Part shown: piece after piece, positions 46,638 to 50,693 of the stretch
How the letters are laid out: each line of letters opens with the position of its first letter
How positions within the stretch are numbered: the first letter of the stretch is position 1
Origin: an uncultured Opitutia bacterium
GTDB taxonomy: Bacteria > Verrucomicrobiota > Verrucomicrobiia > Opitutales > Coraliomargaritaceae
Assembly: GCA_937136395.1 (NCBI GenBank)
Contig: CAKZOI010000095.1
Location: 1-64,000, forward strand
Length of the DNA stretch: 64,000 nucleotides
Direction: 5' to 3'
The notes under the pieces: generated by a model
Databases searched by the model: none
Seen by the model: the letters and a program-made list of their open reading frames with translations, nothing else
What the model was told of the DNA's origin: nothing
Position numbers and translations under genes: made by a program

Positions 46638-49600
46638 ATGCAACCGATCATTCTCCAAGGCCGCCAGGCATTCTCCGATTTCCGTCTCACCGCGCTTAAA
46701 AACGCTCTCAACGAAGCGATTGCCTCATCGTCAGCCACATCAGAGATAAAAGGTAACGGCGCGGGTCCCTCCGCGCCATCCCCGATCGCCACAATCGACG
46801 CCGTCGAAGTCTATTTCATCGAGTCCGACAACATCCTCGACGACACCACCACCGAGCGCGCCTTTGCCCTACTCGCTACGGAAAAGCACTTTAGCCGCGG
46901 AAACGACGGAGGCTTCTTCGTCACTCCACGCAAGGGCACCATCTCTCCTTGGTCCAGCAAGGCGACCGATATCTTTCACAACTGCGGGATCGACGCCATC
47001 GCCCGCGTCGAGCGTGGCATTCACTTCATCCTCACCACTGAGGACGGCCTCGTGCTCGGCATGGCCGACCTCGGTCTCGCGCTCCTTGCACTGCACGACC
47101 GTATGACCGAGGCGGTCTACGACGACGTTTCCGACTTTTTCCGCCACTTCGAGCCTGGCGAGCTGCGCACCGTGCCCCTCATGGCCGAAGGACCCGAAGC
47201 CTTTTACAAGGCCAACGTCGACTGGGGGCTCGCCATGTCACCCGACGAAATCGACTACCTCGTCACCGCTTACCAAAAGATGCAGCGCGACCCGACTGAT
47301 GCCGAACTCGTCATGTTCTCGCAGGTCAACTCCGAGCACTGCCGCCACAAGATTTTCAACGCTGACTGGATCGTCGACGGCGAGAAGAGCGATATTTCCC
47401 TCTTTGGCATGATCCGCAACACCCACAAGCTCAACCCCGAAGGCACCCTTGTCGCCTACTCCGACAACTCTGGCGTGCTCGAAGGCTTCCCCGCCGACTG
47501 GTGGGAAGTCGATCAAAAGGACGGCAGCTTCACCTACCGCAAAACACCCAGCCAGCTAGATATTCTTTGCAAGGTAGAGACCCACAACCACCCCACCGCG
47601 ATCTCGCCCTTCCCCGGGGCCGCGACCGGTGTCGGCGGTGAAATCCGCGACGAAGGTGCCACCGGTATCGGCGGCCGCCCCAAGGCCGGCCTCGCCGCAT
47701 TCATGGTTTCCAATCTCGAAGTCCCCGGCTACACCCAGCTATGGGAAAAGCACATCGCTGAGCACCCCAGCCGCATGGCGTCCCCGATGGACATCATGAT
47801 CGAAGCCCCAATCGGAGGTGCCGCCTTTGGTAACGAGTTCGGCCGCCCACAACTCTGCGGCATGTTCCGCACCCTCCAGCTTGAGCACAACGGCCAACAC
47901 CGCGGCTACCACAAGCCCATCATGTGCGCCGGCGGCATGGGCAACATGAAGCGCGAACACGTCGAGAAGAAAGACATCCCGCCCACAGCACTCATTCTCC
48001 AGCTCGGCGGACCGGCCATGAAGATCGGTCTCGGCGGCGGCGCAGCCTCCTCTATCGGTGCCGGCTCCCAGTCTGAAGCCCTCGACTTTGACTCCGTCCA
48101 GCGCGGCAACCCTGAAATGGAACGCCGCTGCCAACAAGTGATCGACGGCTGCATCGCCCTCGGCGCGGACAACCCCATGCTCTCCATCCACGACATCGGC
48201 GCCGGCGGACTCTCCAACGGCCTGCCCGAGCTCGTCGAAGCCACCGGTGGACGCTTCCACCTGCGCAATATTCACAACGAAGACTCCTCCATGAGCCCCA
48301 TGGAGATCTGGTGCAACGAATCCCAAGAGCGCTACGTCATGGCCGTCATGCCCGACCGTATCGACGCCTTTTCCGCACTCTGCGAACGCGAGCGCTGCCC
48401 CTTCGCCATCGTCGGCGAAGCCACCGACGACGGACAACTCGTGCTCGAAGACTCCCACTTCGAAAACAACCCTATCGACATGGAAATGGGCGTCCTCCTC
48501 GGCAAGACCCCGAAGATGCTCAAAGACGTCACCCGCCTCGTCGAAGACCACGCCGAGCTAGACGTATCCGAGATTCAACTACCCGACGCCATCGACCGCG
48601 TGCTCCGCTTCCCCGCCGTCGCCAATAAGAATTTCCTCATCACTATCGCCGACCGCAGCATCACCGGCATGGTTGCTCGCGACCAAATGGTTGGCCCTTG
48701 GCAAACACCCGTCGCCGACGTCGCCGTGACTGCGACCAGCATGGATGCCTACACCGGCGAAGCCATGGCCATGGGTGAACGCACACCCATCGCGATCCTC
48801 AACGCCGCCGCATCTGGCCGTATCGCCATCGGCGAGTGTTTGACCAATATCGCCGCCTCTTACGTCGGCAAGATCGGCAACATTAAACTCTCTGCCAACT
48901 GGATGGTCGCCGCTGGCGAAGCTGGCGAAGACGCCAACCTTTACGACACGGTCAAAGCCGTCGGTATGGAGCTCTGCCCCGCTTTAGGTATTTGCATCCC
49001 CGTCGGTAAAGACTCCATGTCCATGCGCACCAGCTGGCAGGACAGCGAGGGCACCGACCACAAACAAGTCTCCCCCCTCAGCCTCATGGTCACCGGGTTC
49101 AGCAGCGTCGAAGACGTCCGCAAGACCGTCACCCCCGACCTCAAGTCCGACGATAGCGCCCTCTTCCTTCTCGACCTCGGAGCCGGCAAAAACCGCCTAG
49201 GCGGCTCCACCCTCGCACAAGTTTACAATCAAATCGGCAACGCCACACCCGACCTCGATGATCCCGAGAAATTCCTAGGCTTCTTCAACGCCATCCAAGA
49301 ACTCTTGGCGAGCGACAGCATCCTCTCCTACCACGACCGCGGCGACGGCGGCCTCCTAGCCACACTCGCCGAGATGTCCTTCGCCGGCCGCAAAGGCATC
49401 AACGTAGTCCTAGACAAGTTAACTGGAGGGCAGTGCTCCGTCACTGCCGCTACGTCAGAGTCCGCCCTAGCAGCATTATTTAGCGAAGAGCTAGGAGCCG
49501 TCATCGAAATCGAAAAGACAAAGCTAGCCAACGTCCTAAGTGTCCTAGCCAAGCACGGCGTCAGCGACATCACACACCACATCGGCAGCACCAGCACAGA

Positions 49601-50693
49601 CCAAACGCTCAACATCGAGCTCAACGGTCAAAACATCTTCAGCGACTCCGTCACCAACCTGAACCGCGCCTGGTCCGAGCTAACTTACCATATGCAGTCC
49701 AAACGCGATAACCCAGAGTGCGCGAAAGAAGAATACGACGCGCTACTAGACGAAAACAACGGCATCCTCATCAAACCCACCTTCGACCCAGAAGGTAGCG
49801 GCGCGGGTCCCTCCGCGCCATCCCCATCAGAATCGCCATCCGAATCCGCAGCCCCCGAATCCTGCATCCCGAATCTCGTATCGGGCGCACGCCCGAAAAT
49901 GGCCATCTTCCGCGAACAAGGCATCAACGGCCAAAACGAAATGGCCTTCGCCTTCGACCGTGCAGGTTTCCAGAGCATAGACGTCCACATGACCGATCTC
50001 CTCGCAGGCCGCGTCGACCTCAAGGACTTCGCCGGCCTCGTCGCCTGCGGCGGCTTCTCATACGGCGACGTCTTAGGAGCCGGTTCAGGCTGGGCCAAGA
50101 GCGTCCTCTACAACGCAAAGCTAGCCGACATGTTCCAGGCATTCTTCGAACGTGCCGACAGCTTCACCCTCGGCGTCTGCAACGGCTGTCAAATGATCTC
50201 CCAGCTCAAAGACATCATCCCTGGTGCCGAACACTGGCCACAATTTAAGCGTAACCGTTCCGAGCAATTCGAAGCCAGGTATGCGAATGTCGAAGTCCTC
50301 AAGAGCCCGAGCCTCTTCTTCCAAGGCATGGAAGGATCCCTCCTCCCCATCCCCGTCGCCCACGGCGAAGGCCGCGCCGACTTCTCCGCCACAGGTAGCC
50401 TAGAGAAGTGCCAAAGCGAAGGGCTGGTCAGTATGAGATATATTGACCCAGCAGACAAACCTACCTGCCCCGAGCAACGTCGAGGAGCCGAAGTCTACCC
50501 AGCAAACCCGAATGGCTCACCCGCAGGCACCACAGCCTTCACGACCACCGACGGCCGAGCGACCATCATGATGCCCCATCCCGAGAGACTATTCAGATCG
50601 GTCCAGATGAGTTATAGAACACCTGGCACCTTTGAAGGCGAAGCAGGCCCTTGGCTTAAAATGTTCCAAAACGCACGAGCTAGCATCGGCTAA
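46638..50693 (+). CDS. purL: Phosphoribosylformylglycinamidine synthase, with in-frame repeat insertions
   Basis: This is the large, single-chain form of the purine biosynthesis enzyme, which amidates FGAR using ATP and glutamine. From the ATG at 46638 it has 1351 residues. [38 protein letters not shown] and GVCNGCQM (glutaminase Cys) are visible, with AHGEGRA and MPHPERLF carrying further active-site residues. Against the family, four extra peptides stand out at loops: [11 protein letters not shown] (about residue 39), [14 protein letters not shown] (930), [11 protein letters not shown] (1053) and CPEQRRGAE (1277). The first three are translations of dispersed repeats. All keep the frame, and none hits a catalytic motif. 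A decayed second 3' end lies 700 bp downstream. Confidence 0.96.
46752..46782 (+). repeat. R1 repeat within purL, copy 1
   Basis: GGTAACGGCGCGGGTCCC then TCCGCGCCATCCC encodes [10 protein letters not shown] in frame. It falls in the loop between the first helix and the strand EVYFIES of the N-terminal PurS-like domain. Confidence 0.85.
49424..49462 (+). repeat. R2 repeat within purL
   Basis: TGGAGGGCAGTGCTCCG then TCACTGCCGC, followed by TACGTCAGAGTCCGCCCT, matches the R2 copy at 31711 and is read in frame as [14 protein letters not shown]. It lies just before the helix [13 protein letters not shown]. Confidence 0.8.
49794..49824 (+). repeat. R1 repeat within purL, copy 2
   Basis: It differs from copy 1 by one base (GGTAGC for GGTAAC) and encodes [10 protein letters not shown]. 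It sits in the linker between the synthetase part and the glutaminase domain. That linker is also extended by a Ser/Pro/Glu run. Confidence 0.85.
50466..50492 (+). repeat. 27-bp in-frame insertion in the purL glutaminase domain
   Basis: It encodes CPEQRRGAE between KPT and VYPANPNGS. The homologous remnant at 51396-51972 lacks exactly these codons (EPT joins [10 protein letters not shown]). The DNA holds a CCCCGA/TCGAGG hairpin, similar to the GAGC-N-GTCGA palindromes common in other genomes. Confidence 0.7.

Follow-up and report, generated by a model that had tools for sequence, protein, structure and literature searches.

Recurrent in-frame insertion of REP-type palindromes in purL of an Opitutia bacterium and its relatives

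The closest described counterparts of the elements considered here are repetitive extragenic palindromes (REPs) of the GTAG superfamily. The main text of Di Nocera et al. 2013 (PMC3733652) reports GTAG REPs inside genes, with the highest number in Opitutus terrae (Verrucomicrobiota), where both uvrA genes are doubly interrupted by such elements. GTAG REPs are also reported there to supply stop codons, different REPs lie near one recB site in two Xanthomonas species, and insertions are thought possibly neutral in linkers or loops. Here we describe REP-type insertions in purL, the gene for phosphoribosylformylglycinamidine (FGAM) synthase, in a 64,000-nucleotide stretch of DNA (the window) from an uncultured Opitutia bacterium, and in the purL genes of related genomes. 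A preliminary description of this DNA, made from the sequence by itself, had known of no equivalent in the phylum, a view that the intragenic REPs of O. terrae contradict. Among named records, the PurL nearest to that of the window is from an uncultured Puniceicoccaceae bacterium (78%), and Puniceicoccaceae, like Opitutus, belong to class Opitutia of the Verrucomicrobiota. On the evidence of the text of PMC3733652 used here, the kind of event is therefore already known in the phylum, and the hits in uvrA that we report below repeat that observation. What appears to be new, as far as the literature found goes, is purL as a target and its reuse by several repeat families in several species. The main text of PMC3733652 makes no mention of purL, REPs in purL are not named in the titles or abstract openings of the literature found, and a word search for Verrucomicrobiota or in-gene insertion in the available text of PMC12306157 gave nothing. 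One candidate paper on purL and REPs (PMC6006769) was set aside, its “purl” being a web address.

The window purL (46641–50693, plus strand) encodes 1350 residues counted from the methionine at 46641. Its open reading frame (ORF) is intact, and the product matches full-length FGAM synthase (NF003672, 1894 bits; TIGR01735, 1725 bits). Four in-frame insertions had been proposed in it, and all four are present with the frame kept, the net extra lengths relative to insert-free relatives all being multiples of 3. At site 1, a copy of the repeat R1 (46751–46778, plus strand, from residue 38) has GTAA, not GTAG, is read GNGAGPSAP, and forms part of a net insert of ~51 nt. At site 2, a copy of the repeat R2 (49424–49450, plus strand, from residue 929), with a GGAG tag and a 7-bp stem, is read GGQCSVTA within a net insert of 33 nt. 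Site 3 holds a second R1 copy (49793–49820, plus strand, from residue 1052), an exact match to the search pattern that is read GSGAGPSAP; it lies in a long linker before what we take to be the glutaminase domain, and the net extra length there is ~42 nt at a site that is itself length-variable. Site 4 is a CPEQRRGAE block (50466–50492, plus strand, from residue 1276), a net in-frame insertion of 24 nt. Of the residue numbers given earlier, that of R2 was right and the other three were off by one. The R1 and R2 copies in purL differ from the search patterns by 0–1 mismatches and are single elements rather than inverted pairs.

Both repeats are dispersed through the genome. In the 3.18-Mb genome of the window (G000; other G numbers denote genomes of relatives), the R1 consensus AGGTAGCGGCGCGNGTCCCTNCGCGCCA is found 41 times at three or fewer mismatches and the R2 consensus TGGAGGGNNNNGCTCYGTCNNNNCCGC, searched with the stem left free, 73 times, whereas the reversed-pattern controls gave 0 for each; a first R2 pattern found 58. 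The window holds five R1 and three R2 matches versus a shuffled mean of 0.00. The shuffles and reversed patterns exclude chance or low complexity as the source of the matches, and the genome-wide enrichment that the preliminary description had wanted checked is strong. In R1, an unpaired GTAG precedes a stem of 8 bp with a loop of 4 nt; in R2, an unpaired GGAG precedes a stem of 7 bp with a loop of 6 nt. The loops of both are conserved. The tags are nearly invariant (G 1.00, T 1.00, A 0.95, G 0.98 in the 41 aligned R1 copies; 0.98–1.00 per position for GGAG in 64 R2 copies of G000 and 57 of G002). The four variable stem pairs of R2 covary, with 98.6% of cells paired over 121 copies from two genomes as against a maximum of 69.4% when the right halves of the stems were shuffled, and the R1-type matches of G002 (n = 10) keep the stem with different letters (GGCGCTT...AAGCGCC). 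Hairpins of R1, R2, and two further repeats met below, R5 and R6, have stabilities of −10.0 to −15.9 kcal/mol. An inverted partner lies within 120 nt of 16 of the 41 R1 copies and 36 of 64 R2 copies, at 26–32 nt in 30 of those 36.

These properties place the elements among known systems. The GTAG REP superfamily has stems of 5–13 bp, loops of 2–20 nt, and tens to thousands of mostly intergenic copies, ranges that include both R1 (8/4) and R2 (7/6); R1 belongs by its tag as well, except for the copy at site 1 of purL. Tag plus palindrome, tens of copies, and inverted pairs are features shared with REP doublets forming hairpins (REPINs) and their REP-associated tyrosine transposases (RAYTs), and two inverted REPs close together, the defining trait of a REPIN, are what the paired R1 and R2 copies counted above form. 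R1 and R6 resemble the GGTAGC-type and GTGGC-type REPs printed in the part of PMC2817692 consulted (GGTAGCGCCGGGCCATGCCCGGCG and GTGGCGAGGGAGCTTGCTCCCGCT). With the intragenic REPs described in the main text of PMC3733652, our system has in common GTAG palindromes, occurrence as singles and inverted dimers, retention of frame, and a multiply hit uvrA. It differs in involving three loops of purL, several repeat families, and several genomes, and in that the purL inserts are mostly single copies with one direction where they can be oriented. The palindromic elements of Rickettsia, to which the preliminary description had likened the inserts, are similar in being palindromes kept in frame, a comparison made through their description in PMC3733652; there the likeness ends. 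The elements here are of REP type and ~27 nt long, RPE-1 is described as longer, and the lineages are unrelated.

Few copies lie in genes, an in-gene call being made from an open frame and codon bias on both flanks. Two of 41 R1 copies are intragenic in G000, both in purL, as are five of the 64 R2 copies (of 73) whose coding context was judged, one in purL and four in a uvrA-like gene. Copies near the start of an ORF, such as the one at 36707, were left out of the count if their upstream flank was short or lacked codon bias. The R2 copies in uvrA and an AddA/RecB-like helicase use several reading frames. It had been argued that the DNA, not the peptide, is what spreads, and the small share of copies in genes and the variety of frames both agree with this.

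Comparison with relatives indicates how the purL inserts are distributed. In an alignment of PurL with 25 relatives, 25 cover site 1 and 22 cover sites 2–4; C-terminal pieces from three further relatives were added, two of which cover sites 2 and 3. R1 at site 1 is missing from 25 of 25 relatives, R1 at site 3 is found in none of the 24 that cover it, and the CPEQRRGA block is without counterpart in 25 of 25. The alignment thus excludes ancient shared loops for R1 and for the block. At site 2, R2-type elements with other stems occur in four of 24 covering relatives (G002, G014, G018, and G024), so that the R2 insert is perhaps partly older than the window species. Sites 2 and 3 are length-variable across the whole family.

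The same sites hold different repeats in different species. At site 2, G002 carries R6, R2, and one more GTAG palindrome, and its site 3 has an R5-like insert; in G018, site 1 holds R6, site 2 holds two R2-type elements, and site 3 another palindromic pair; in G004, R5 occupies site 3 and is also nested within an R4-type element at site 2; G024 has an R2-type element at site 2 and R6 at site 3. An R2-type element occupies site 2 in G014, and R4-type elements occupy it in G011 and G019. For five of these combinations the repeat is dispersed in its own genome: R5 in G004 (24 matches, two exact ones within purL), R2 in G002 (57 copies, one within purL), R4 in G011 (19 matches that overlap in part, with one exact in purL), and R6 in G018 and G024 (11 and eight matches, with an exact purL copy in each). 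On a quick PurL tree with five open forks, in which 22 family rows and one outgroup were labelled, G014 and G024 were left unlabelled, and gains and losses counted alike, a minimum of three changes accounts for whether site 2 has or lacks a repeat, and a minimum of six for the kind of insert. The earlier remark on repeated tolerance in one essential gene therefore holds for purL as a recurrent target both here and in relatives. On the same tree, the PurL of G002, a member of the window's genus, groups with G010 and G021 of another genus (SH-like approximate likelihood ratio test, 100), a placement that hints at horizontal exchange of purL (L070).

The block at site 4 has a different standing. 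Among 24 genomes at up to three mismatches, its sole match is itself, and its 22-nt core finds no other match at up to five mismatches in the window and the fetched G000 loci. At six mismatches there are four matches versus three in the reversed control, and in this material the block was not found to be a dispersed repeat; the earlier count of at least three inserts from dispersed repeats therefore stands at the three demonstrated, two of R1 and one of R2. Downstream of the gene lies a partial second copy of the purL 3′ end (51390–51975; 71–74% protein identity, with an in-frame TGA), whose own extra stretch falls between GMD and GSLLP and whose placement on the PurL tree is not settled; it may be a remnant of another purL. 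This copy is without CPEQRRGA and carries a different extra stretch, and it was discarded as a donor of the block.

The inserts had also been assigned to loops or linkers. In an AlphaFold model of PurL residues 700–1350 (33 sequences; mean predicted local distance difference test (pLDDT) 81.6, predicted template modelling score 0.81), pLDDT falls below 50 at residues 931–934, 1054–1078, and 1279–1282, that is, inside inserts 2, 3, and 4, and insert 2 connects a strand and a helix. The assignment is thus borne out for these three as low-confidence loops or linkers. At site 1, the alignment places the insert before a well-aligned stretch of the N-terminal region.

Within genes, the repeats are concentrated in two targets. 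Twelve in-gene events were judged in G000 (R1 and R2), G002 (R2), and G004 (R5), and six of these fall in purL and three in uvrA; outside this count are the 10 R1 matches of G002, all R4 and R6 copies, and a PabB copy in G011 that was excluded since G004 has it too, at an identical position. The 57 R2 copies of G002 contribute purL, uvrA (a pair), and an AddA/RecB-like helicase (a pair); the 24 R5 copies of G004 contribute purL twice and a CusA-like transporter and PabB once each. Among the 17 of 18 R5 copies of G011 that were judged, the in-gene one is that in PabB. A rough binomial for the excess in purL, ignoring descent between genomes as do all these figures, gives 6.5e-15 for the pooled events. 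As purL was the gene noticed first, only three values are fair tests: 1.3e-6 for G000 alone with any of ~2800 genes allowed, 5e-3 for G002, and 6e-6 for G004.

As judged from sequence, uvrA is a second gene of the same kind. The uvrA-like gene of G000 (contig C35, locus L214, 1293–7169) has 1959 codons, ~2× the length of the UvrA model, and contains two inverted R2 pairs besides several R4-type peptides; the second pair (C35, 5759/5813) lies within the ORF but failed the two-sided codon-bias test and was counted by position. UvrA of 15 genomes, some rows being partial, shows 10 internal variable stretches, at least four of which (G000 residues 448, 1229, 1359, and 1662) contain repeat-like peptides whose kinds differ by species. 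At residue 1359, for example, the peptide is of R4 type in G000, G004, G010, G011, G019, and G021, and an R2 pair is present in G002. R4 matches at the DNA level lie within uvrA of G004, G011, and G010 among the matches listed.

We consider it highly probable that R1 and R2 are mobile hairpins of the REP/REPIN type and that the purL inserts are selfish REP insertions, selected for frame and tolerated in disordered loops, a judgement that applies to this explanation as a whole. R1 and R2 would copy themselves around the genome as DNA, singly or in inverted pairs, probably mobilised by a single-strand transposase of the Y1/HUH class and RAYT kind. Insertions that break genes would be lost, and those that fall in frame in disordered surface loops would survive. 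PurL would offer three such permissive places, a loop of the N-terminal domain, the loop that joins strand and helix around residue 930, and the linker leading to the glutaminase domain, and the PurL of this family would have kept insertions repeatedly, from different repeat families in different species. The enzyme presumably stays active, and the peptides encoded by the inserts are probably neutral for it.

A number of observations weigh against this explanation or parts of it. Three of six low-confidence segments in the AlphaFold model lie away from the inserts. By its GGAG tag, R2 stands outside the GTAG superfamily, though it is REP-like. The block at site 4 is, by alignment, a clean insertion whose origin is unexplained. 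The R2-type elements at site 2 of four relatives may represent one older insertion rather than separate ones. Dispersal in the own genome is not established for the third palindrome, the R5-like insert, or R6 of G002, where the purL copy of R6 is the sole match and the R5 pattern has no match; nor is it established in G018 for the R2-type elements or the site 3 pair, in G019 for R4, or in G024 for the R2-type element. The order of the purL inserts, in sense and in one frame, exceeds what free insertion followed by selection for frame would give. As to neutrality, the authors of PMC3733652 find it difficult to accept that chance brought REPs into genes of replication and repair, uvrA among them. 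The mobilising enzyme is a further difficulty. The six Y1_Tnp matches of G000 fall into five loci, one with an internal stop, and none of these loci is bordered by R1 or R2, the nearest lying ~1.8 kb away among the matches listed, which sets R1 and R2 apart from REPs mobilised by an adjoining RAYT. G002 has no Y1_Tnp match despite its 57 R2 copies, and Y1_Tnp occurs without R1, R2, or R5 in G003 and G007 of the family and in G027, G029, G031, and G032 of the wider order. The Y1_Tnp searches of G000 and G002 thus give no support to a RAYT linkage of R1 and R2, and from these two genomes we can only infer the mobilisation step.

Other explanations start from the regularity of the purL inserts. 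All 13 that can be oriented lie in sense, and each repeat family keeps one frame in purL; the list of 13 was compiled by eye, includes one degenerate R2 common to three genomes, and omits inserts to which no direction could be assigned (those of R4 and the pair at site 3 of G018). The chance of a single direction is 2.4e-4 if the 13 are independent and 2e-3 for perhaps ten after shared descent, and shared descent may explain part of the order in orientation and frame. Given this order and a shared 3′ tail described below, strand-specific entry may be considered, as may copying from one gene loop to another. HUH elements insert on the lagging-strand template. Entry into purL could thus be targeted or strand-specific, through single-stranded DNA at preferred motifs and in one orientation, the gene being hot by its sequence and its place relative to replication rather than by loop tolerance. 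That all 13 inserts are in sense although the antisense has equal or more open frames for 12 of them, and that the same loops are hit in several species, would fit such entry; the flanks outside the elements show little conservation, however, common descent probably accounts for some of the 13, and the copies in uvrA, AddA-like, PabB, and CusA-like genes resemble inverted pairs and so have no single direction. On balance we find this route doubtful, though far from negligible. The tail, CRTCAGAGTCMGC, has seven exact matches in 1.04 Mb (the window and family loci), and six follow a REP directly: R2 in purL of G000, R5 in purL of G004, R5 in PabB of G004 and G011 (shared), R6 in purL of G024, and one intergenic R1 of G000. 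These six (L004, L016, L084, L222, L267, and L299) represent four REP families, five of them being in genes and two shared by descent. With one mismatch, one of 11 rows follows a REP (the R5-like insert of G002 purL), and the reversed control gives 12 rows at up to one mismatch. Such a tail would be expected if elements passed from one coding sequence to another by gene conversion or template switching and not from intergenic copies, and the agreement of the G004 purL site 3 and PabB copies through the tail, as well as the single frame of each family in purL, points the same way. But the tail also follows the intergenic R1 copy (L004), the uvrA copies are in other frames, and the loci searched were fetched around repeats and are therefore a biased sample; transfer of this sort seems to us rather improbable. 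A bolder proposal would make the PurL loops programmed landing pads for several REP families, in one direction and one frame, reached either by strand-specific transposition or by loop-to-loop copying with the shared tail. Taken whole, we think it unlikely; if true, repeats regarded as extragenic would occupy a niche of their own within coding sequence.

The inserts might instead have been domesticated, for example to provide flexible linkers or, as hairpins in the mRNA, to slow ribosomes at domain boundaries and so aid the folding of a large multidomain protein. Site 3 is an inter-domain linker, the R1 peptides are rich in Gly, Ser, Ala, and Pro, and the hairpins are stable, with purL copies at 0–1 mismatches; close relatives nevertheless lack these inserts, and the repeats differ by species. 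Selection for the most linker-like frame, measured as the share of disorder-promoting residues among the four to six open frames, finds no support in the ranks of the frames used (1, 3, 1, 4, 3, 1, 5, 4, 2, 3, 4, 4, 4), which come first in only three of 13. We regard domestication as quite unlikely. That the sites are ordinary variable loops, with a likeness to repeats arising by chance or composition, might be suggested by the family-wide length variation at sites 2 and 3, but it is scarcely credible given the exact or near-exact matches to dispersed elements and the zero counts in controls, which refute it for R1, R2, R5, and R6. Selfish insertion with selection for frame accordingly remains the reading that we prefer.

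REPs are named for being extragenic, and purL has taken up several unrelated families of them repeatedly at fixed loops in several species. Its inserts amount to a natural insertion-scanning record of tolerance in an essential multidomain enzyme. Those that can be oriented are material for the study of REP transposition, which is still obscure, and their one-sided orientation makes a strand-specific mechanism testable in closed genomes.

Elsewhere in the window, an inverted R2 pair resembling a REPIN has its left half at 31714–31739 (plus strand) and its right half at 31766–31791 (minus strand). The codon-bias test assigns an R1 copy at 31841–31866 (plus strand) to no gene. In another, at 33842–33867 (plus strand), the GTAG gives the TAG stop of a 296-amino acid ORF (32956–33846). 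A third R1 copy, outside genes at 41347–41372 (plus strand), lies between inverted copies of a further repeat, R3 (41298–41318 and 41387–41414), and the R2 copy at 36707–36732 (minus strand) lies shortly before the codon at which the next gene probably starts. R3 (AGTCTTAATCCTACTCTTACT) occurs in direct and inverted copies at 32769–32897, 41298–41421, and 46428–46472, the last an inverted pair directly upstream of purL.

Near purL, a Y1 transposase gene (52339–53256, 305 amino acids), one of the Y1_Tnp loci of G000, has as its best NCBIfam match the REP-associated tyrosine transposase, at 69.1 bits, below the 80-bit cut-off; its presence counts in favour of the preferred reading. It is flanked by 26-nt inverted repeats AAAAGGGGTCAAACGTTTAAATTAAA (52275–52300 and 53265–53290), and a 25-nt direct repeat of the end lies at 53269–53318. 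The smaller genomes of the family (1.3–2 Mb; G005, G006, G008, G009, G012, G013, and G015) have no R1, R2, or R5 and no Y1_Tnp match. Finally, a short array of GAAACGCT-like units with a period of ~8 is present in the window at 37666–37729.

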